DNA of 33,440 nucleotides from an uncultured Clostridia bacterium (GTDB lineage Bacteria; Bacillota_I; Bacilli_A; RF39; UBA660): contig CAMOMI010000001.1 in NCBI GenBank assembly GCA_946619755.1, positions 1 to 33,440 of the forward strand. Direction: 5' to 3'. Both the position numbers and the translations under genes were made by a program. The notes beneath the pieces are model-generated. The model was not told the origin of the DNA and ran no database searches. It saw only the letters and a program-made list of their open reading frames with translations. Positions 25,882-26,130 of this stretch are shown here, one piece after another. Numbering within the stretch: the first letter of the stretch is position 1; each line of letters starts with the position of its first letter.

Positions 25882-26130
25882 TTAGTATGTTACAAGCGGA
25901 TTAAAGAATAACAATAAGAAACAAAAAGCAAATAAGAAAAGTAAAAATACTGCTGTAATTATTAGTATTGTCATTACAGAGTGCACTACATCATTTTTAG
26001 TCTCAGGATTTCTACCGATAGCTTCTGCTACCCTCCCACCAAGTATACCTACACCAATACCAAGTCCTAAAAAGCATAGTCCTATCATAATTCCAATTGC
26101 TAAAGCCGTATTTGATAAAATCGTTTCCAT
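25882..26130 (-). CDS. atpE: F-type c-subunit-like protein without the ion-binding carboxylate
   Basis: The protein is 82 residues with two membrane helices and the c-subunit loop [13 protein letters not shown] at about 31-43. Helix 1 is Gly-rich ([13 protein letters not shown]), as needed for ring packing. In normal c subunits helix 2 carries an essential Glu or Asp about 17 residues after the loop NPE. Here helix 2 (about 48-76) is Val, Met, Thr, Ile, Leu and Phe with no Asp or Glu, and helix 1 has none either. A ring of this protein could hold a rotor but should not carry protons or sodium. GAAGGAG precedes the ATG, and the strongest promoter in the window lies just upstream. Confidence 0.88.

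Follow-up and report, generated by a model that had tools for sequence, protein, structure and literature searches.

An F-type ATPase operon of gut and rumen bacteria with a c subunit that lacks the ion-binding carboxylate and a possible link to surface proteins

The window analysed here, a stretch of 33,440 nucleotides from the genome of an uncultured Clostridia bacterium, encodes an F-type ATPase operon in which the c subunit has lost the carboxylate that binds the transported ion. We consider it probable that the operon represents an F-type rotary ATPase that has been turned into an ATP-driven mechanical device, in which an ion-free ring would pass torque to surface proteins. The case is built from sequence comparisons, and draws on the loss of the carboxylate, the intact residues of F1, the absence of PF00119 (subunit a) matches from the hosts of clade A, the structure of the operon, the co-occurrence with FN3-type proteins and an apparent relation to the motors of the mycoplasmas. 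A broader proposal is that the operon belongs to an undescribed class of rotary ATPases in which the c-ring has been selected as an ion-free mechanical shaft or bearing that conveys the torque of F1 to surface proteins of the FN3 type, and that this class is the ancestral lineage of the gliding and MIB-MIP motors of the mycoplasmas. We put this forward tentatively, and doubt it slightly more than we believe it.

A c subunit without an acid in the membrane

An earlier note on this DNA, made from the letters alone, had recognized an F-type c subunit by its loop and its Gly-rich first helix, and had found neither Asp nor Glu in either of the two membrane helices. Both observations are borne out. 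The loop and the Gly-rich helix 1 are present, and PF00137 covers the protein from end to end with 35 bits, against a curated cut-off of 24. The only acidic residues are E2, E36, E43 and D47, none of which is located within the two membrane helices, and the position of D61 in E. coli is taken by Ala60 in the profile alignment. The carboxylate of the c-ring is called universally conserved in a previous publication (PMC6063947).

The note had named orthologues with Glu or Asp at this place, or a sequencing error in helix 2, as observations that would speak against its reading. When aligned together with diverse c subunits, none of the 27 distinct orthologues carries a carboxylate at the ion site (A in 12, S in seven, T in three, V in three, I in one and F in one), whereas all 42 distinct canonical c subunits have an acid there (E in 41 and D in one). 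The loss is consistent across the family, and since the same c sequence was found again in many independent assemblies, a sequencing error is ruled out.

Pairwise comparisons of the c gene within the genus yielded dN/dS ratios mostly in the range of 0.02-0.04, with dS values of about 0.6-1.5 and dN values of 0.005-0.06. With dS near 1, and with a loss that is common to all 27 orthologues, ratios this low rule out chance and a pseudogene, and they indicate that the gene is under strong purifying selection despite the loss of a normally essential residue. A second c gene that might donate the acid is ruled out for the window's own assembly (826 kb, 76% complete), which contains a single match to PF00137.

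The carboxylate-less systems fall into three clades, here called A, B and C, of which the first includes the window. The c subunits of clade B (L122, L123) have retained the Gln in helix 1 that is characteristic of Na+-type rings (GIGQG), while the Glu in helix 2 is gone. The retained Gln suggests that the ring of clade B descended from a Na+-type ring.

The F1 head and the predicted peripheral stalk

The beta subunit contains the P-loop Lys, the catalytic Glu and the Walker B Asp, and the P-loop and EELSEED motifs of beta, like the P-loop of alpha, are conserved across clades A, B and C with small variations. Judged from its residues and protein families, the alpha3beta3 head would be that of an F1Fo enzyme. 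Both subunits are closest to the F1 and F1-like families, not to FliI/SctN, and alpha scores almost the same with the MMOB1660 model (387 bits) as with the atpA model (382 bits). In clade A, alpha retains an N-terminal segment that is missing from the F1-like alphas of the mycoplasmas (PMC12994834; PMC11864180). The epsilon-like subunit is a more cautious assignment, its identity by alignment being weak by itself.

The predicted peripheral stalk is a single protein in which the b and delta subunits appear to be fused (Table 1). Its C-terminal domain aligned to canonical delta with an hhalign probability of 65% (E 6e-5), and the G and D of the delta signature are invariant in the alignment; no Pfam or NCBIfam family matched the protein.

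In two relatives in clade A, the alpha subunit is extended far past its normal end, to 1416 aa in G013 (L125:4888-9138) and to at least 648 aa in G064 (L126/L127), where the extension probably consists of charged repeats such as EKTTEIKEEKQNQEE. Extensions of this kind might tie motors together or to a scaffold.

Operon organization and surface proteins

In clade A outside the window's own family, and in clades B and C, the genes are arranged in the order giant surface protein, h484-type protein, c, b-delta, alpha, gamma, beta and epsilon. A small multi-helix membrane protein and a single-pass protein come next, in many cases with another giant protein after them; in the clade C operon, no separate single-pass protein was seen. 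The core, from c over b/delta, alpha, gamma and beta to epsilon, has the order of an ordinary atp operon, as seen by comparison with E. coli, and the surface proteins replace the missing subunit a. In the window's genus, gamma has been relocated behind the gene for a five-helix membrane protein and the gene for h239 is located before c; more generally, the h239-type gene either adjoins the c gene or comes after the five-helix gene.

Table 1. Features of the window, listed in the order of their positions
Feature	Position	Strand	Size (aa)	Basis and remarks
Tad-type pilus genes	1799-6472	minus		T2SSF-like, CpaF/T2SSE ATPase, CpaE-like, TadE-like
Secreted protein with cadherin-like domain	6551-8836	minus	761	Beside the Tad-type genes
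Single-helix pilin-like or TasA-like protein	18266-18922	minus		VATLVVAIIGATFAYFS
Protein after gamma	18988..20835	minus	615	Found in the genus only; operon membership uncertain
F1 gamma-like subunit	20851..21615	minus	254	PF00231 3.8e-26
Five-helix membrane protein, candidate diverged subunit a or new stator	21628..22167	minus	179	AF2 model
Epsilon-like subunit, N-terminal domain only	22169..22429	minus	86	Alignment to canonical epsilon; conserved place after beta
F1 beta-like catalytic subunit	22422..23771	minus	449	PF00006 1.9e-66; TIGR01039 465.7 bits
F1 alpha-like subunit	23786..25129	minus	447	PF00006 4.1e-71; P-loop intact, N-terminal segment retained
b-delta fusion, predicted peripheral stalk	25113..25880	minus		One TM helix at the N-terminus, a charged stalk and a delta-like domain at the C-terminus (..RGIKIVYRNKVYDFSL..)
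c subunit without ion-binding carboxylate	25882..26130	minus	82	PF00137 35 bits; alignments; dN/dS
h239, single-pass membrane protein, predicted outside beta-rich domain	26199..26918	minus		Clade A alignment
h484, single-pass membrane protein	26924..28378	minus		TM, beta domain 41-207, two FN3-fold domains 277-484; AF2 model and PDB matches
Giant FN3-type surface protein, N-terminal TM	28397..33418	minus	1904	Size in the full contig; start beyond the window

A homolog of h484 was identified in 21 of the 22 genomes with a carboxylate-less c subunit, G452 being the one with no match, and in none of 39 comparison genomes without such a subunit, most of which belong to the window's own family (Fisher p 2e-15, not corrected for kinship). 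The gene is located elsewhere in the genome, and not beside c, in the G122 subclade and in G013, and the corresponding partners in clades B and C show weak and partial matches to h484 (E 1e-10 to 1e-16). The FN3 matches of the giant protein are weak. No match to solved structures was obtained for h239, and a relationship between h239 and h484 was rejected, as the two share a short and weak match only (probability 24%).

Several other genes in these genomes may also be mentioned. In G013, small helical proteins that recall the WXG/LXG type precede the c gene in place of the FN3 genes (L125:10757-11836). The pilin-like or TasA-like protein of the window is encoded after gamma and the gene for the 615-aa protein, and is present in four tandem copies in G122 (L131:8024-11142). 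The secreted 761-aa protein contains, by eye, dockerin-like and cohesin-like stretches.

Distribution

Relatives were sought with a protein search in 117 genomes and with a search of GTDB genome contigs for the gamma subunit, and the profile of the carboxylate-less c subunit was searched in 395 Bacilli genomes, in 391 genomes of the class of G449 and in 392 of the phylum. The hosts are gut and rumen bacteria, and nearly all of them are represented by incomplete metagenome assemblies. Clade A was identified in a minority of the window's own family, in a few assemblies labelled as Bacilli or Mollicutes (L042-L044), in two labelled as Clostridia and in one labelled as Lachnospiraceae, which has two copies. 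Clade B consists of two Bacilli genomes (G096 and G395, the latter a single contig of 2.4 Mb), and clade C of G070. The clade B hosts and the Lachnospiraceae-labelled assembly have a normal F1Fo with subunit a at another locus. The latter assembly (G449; L128, L129) also encodes several V-type genes. The occurrence of the three clades is patchy, and may reflect horizontal transfer or repeated loss. The plasmid-borne matches to F1 beta that we examined belonged to canonical F1Fo or N-ATPase operons, not to the carboxylate-less type.

Proposed function and alternative interpretations

The most parsimonious interpretation is that the complex is a motor and not a pump. We hypothesize that F1 hydrolyses ATP and thereby turns gamma, epsilon and the attached c-ring, while the b-delta stalk would anchor alpha3beta3 against the membrane and stop the head from rotating along with the ring. 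The ring would be unable to carry ions, since it has lost the carboxylate and since no arginine-bearing subunit a can be recognized, and free of ion chemistry it would serve as a passive bearing or coupling disc. Such a role had been suggested in the earlier note, and it fits with the intact F1 residues, the b-delta stator, the lack of a classical subunit a and the strong purifying selection. The torque would then be passed through the membrane to surface proteins that have a single TM helix, beta domains close to the membrane and FN3 repeats. These proteins would move or change shape on the outside, as has been proposed for the gliding (PMC11864180) and MIB-MIP (PMC12994834) motors of the mycoplasmas. 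From sequence data of this kind we infer that the ring assembles, rotates and transmits force, and likewise which of the surface proteins receives it; the ATPase, which is genetically linked to the FN3 proteins, may act on surface proteins.

A simpler possibility is that the enzyme is an F1 ATPase for which the ring is a mere membrane anchor, and that the surface proteins assemble for adhesion or signalling, with no work being driven by rotation on the outside. This interpretation benefits from the circumstance that a rotation reaching the exterior is deduced rather than seen. However, it would be wasteful to keep a stator and an intact catalytic cycle for such a purpose, and in the Type 3 system of the mycoplasmas the P-loop Lys of beta is required for MIB-MIP function (PMC12994834). 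We regard an anchor of this kind as unlikely.

Our confidence is low also in the idea that the complex is still an ion pump, with the five-helix protein as a diverged subunit a and with ion binding in the ring via Thr or Ser, via the backbone or via an acid provided by another subunit. The AF2 model of the five-helix protein (pLDDT 76) is of interest in this context, as 13 of its best 17 matches to solved structures are ATP synthase Fo entries (9jc2_B with Z 9.3, which is the first, 6n2d_a with Z 8.2 and 7jg5_a with Z 7.3), although Z scores below about 13 are not decisive for helical bundles and may reflect a common arrangement. Furthermore, the c1 subunit of Acetobacterium woodii, the closest solved relative, has one hairpin in which Gln replaces Glu within a mixed ring, and the members of the family in clade A show no other rotary ATPase. 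Against a pump speaks that the residue at the ion site may be A, S, T, V, I or F, and thus that no polar group is conserved, and that the window's own assembly has a single c gene. Likewise, sequence profile comparisons with hhalign revealed no link between the five-helix protein and subunit a, and in the alignment of its helices 4 and 5 neither Arg nor Lys is conserved within the membrane, ahead of the cytoplasmic end. The model is compatible with either a subunit a that has been stripped of its working residues or an unrelated stator. The protein may be a distant subunit a, and the interface between stator and ring may therefore persist.

The genome searches bear on the same question. No match to PF00119 was obtained in the window's own assembly (76% complete), in six other members of the family (90-96% complete), in G122 and G382, or in the genomes of L042-L046 and L038-L040. 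Each of seven family members contains two PF00006 genes and no more, both of them belonging to the operon, so that a further F- or V-type pair is not seen in these genomes; the window's own genome likewise has two PF00006 genes above the cut-off. A single match to PF00119 was obtained in G070, but it may represent contamination, because it contains three TGA stops and is located on another contig, and because the assembly has only two PF00006 genes.

Just as improbable as an ion pump, in our view, is an ATP-driven device for the export or assembly of the adjacent giant surface proteins, rather than one that moves proteins already in place. The giant proteins are indeed encoded on one or both flanks of the operon, and the F1-like ATPases are related to the export ATPases FliI/SctN, but alpha and beta are nearest to the F1 and F1-like families and not to these. 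In addition, gamma, epsilon, the b-delta stalk and the c subunit have all been retained, as in a rotary machine, and the N-terminal TM or signal segments of the surface proteins suit Sec. Finally, the notion of a decaying remnant of an ATP synthase, which might be suggested by small genomes from which subunit a and the ion site have been lost, is contradicted by the low dN/dS ratios, by the conservation of the whole operon across clades A, B and C, in the clade B hosts next to an intact F1Fo, and by the two operon copies kept beside an intact F1Fo in the Lachnospiraceae-labelled assembly, and we discount it.

A lineage in which a ring without the carboxylate is maintained by strong selection would demonstrate that Fo can serve purposes beyond the movement of ions. 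We found no report of a carboxylate-less c-ring, or of F1-like ATPases outside the mycoplasmas, in a search of open-access journal papers.

Relation to the mycoplasma motors

The trees inferred from alpha and beta separated canonical F1Fo, mycoplasma Type 1, E. coli and the N-ATPase from a group consisting of clades A, B and C and mycoplasma Types 2 and 3; in one of the trees, a single canonical F1Fo, that of G395, was placed beside the latter group. Clade B is nearest to the canonical side. The split of clades A and C and Types 2 and 3 from clade B and the canonical enzymes received a support of 54-97 depending on the data set, with 97 (UFBoot) for the first and 54 for the second (0.975 with FastTree), for which the whole group including clade B was supported by 95. 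In AU tests, an origin of Types 2 and 3 from the mycoplasmas' own F1Fo was rejected (p 0.004), as was a placement outside clades A, B and C (p 0.0136), and a tree in which clade B is joined to the F1Fo of its own hosts was compatible with the data (p 0.08). A root on the V-type enzymes was set aside (branch 3.5, without support values). Because the branches of clades A and C and of Types 2 and 3 are long and the model is homogeneous, the tree evidence that Types 2 and 3 belong within the carboxylate-less group is good but not final, and their exact placement beside clade A is weakly supported.

Profile comparisons yielded no counterparts of c, h484, h239 or the five-helix protein in the Type 3 clusters. 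The idea that the mycoplasma 12-TM protein 1 represents fused c hairpins was rejected (hhalign probability 0.7%), and hhalign gave no signal for protein 2 with b/delta, protein 4 with epsilon or protein 5 with h484/h239; gamma and mycoplasma protein 3 were aligned with a probability of 57%. The scores against the NCBIfam models MSC_0618, MSC_0619, MMOB1660 and MMOB1670 are all below the cut-offs (404/570, 314/520, 387/600 and 365/850 bits, respectively).

Comparison with known systems

The N-ATPase, or alternate F1F0, resembles the system described here in that an extra F-type operon is present beside the normal one in some hosts. However, the example included here retains subunit a and a c subunit with Glu, and it groups apart from the carboxylate-less family in the tree. 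The canonical F1Fo shares with the window operon its gene order, the F1 motifs and the c hairpin with its loop, and the closest solved c chains are c1/c2 of the clostridial Na+-type enzyme of A. woodii (4bem). The window system differs in that it has neither the carboxylate nor a recognizable subunit a, in that b and delta are fused, in that epsilon lacks the C-terminal helices, and in that surface proteins have been added.

The Type 3 F1-like X0 system (MIB-MIP, MSC_0618-0624 family) is similar in several respects. It has catalytically intact F1-like alpha, beta and gamma subunits, no recognizable subunit a and an operon with surface proteins, and its alpha and beta are located in the same region of the tree. 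Unlike the window operon, it has no homolog of c or b and instead contains proteins with 12 and 2 TM helices (PMC12994834, PMC3369863), and its alpha lacks the N-terminal helix that the window alpha has retained. No ORFs corresponding to the 12-TM protein 1 or to protein 5, with its 2-3 TM helices, were identified in the carboxylate-less operons, in which c and b are present.

The Type 2 G1-ATPase, the twin motor for gliding in M. mobile, is likewise an F1-like motor that is thought to drive surface proteins, and its GliD has been proposed to be a b-delta fusion (PMC11864180). The window operon differs in having a b-delta protein with a TM helix and a c subunit, and in that its beta has no extra N-terminal domain. 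According to the published model, Type 2 converts the rotation of F1 into a force on surface proteins, and it has been suggested that the system began with the acquisition of a surface adhesin by an F1Fo, and that a b-delta fusion gave rise to GliD (PMC11864180).

The window operon is set apart from F1Fo and from Types 2 and 3 because the carboxylate and a recognizable subunit a are absent, c and b-delta are present, the 12-TM protein is absent and the family scores are below the cut-offs, and we therefore classify it as a novel form among the F-type and F1-like rotary ATPases. The carboxylate-less ATPase may represent a step on the way from ATP synthase to the motors of the mycoplasmas. With surface proteins encoded in the same cluster as a b-delta protein and a silent ring, in bacteria other than mycoplasmas, it would offer a concrete candidate intermediate for how the mycoplasmas obtained their F1 motors for gliding and antibody removal.
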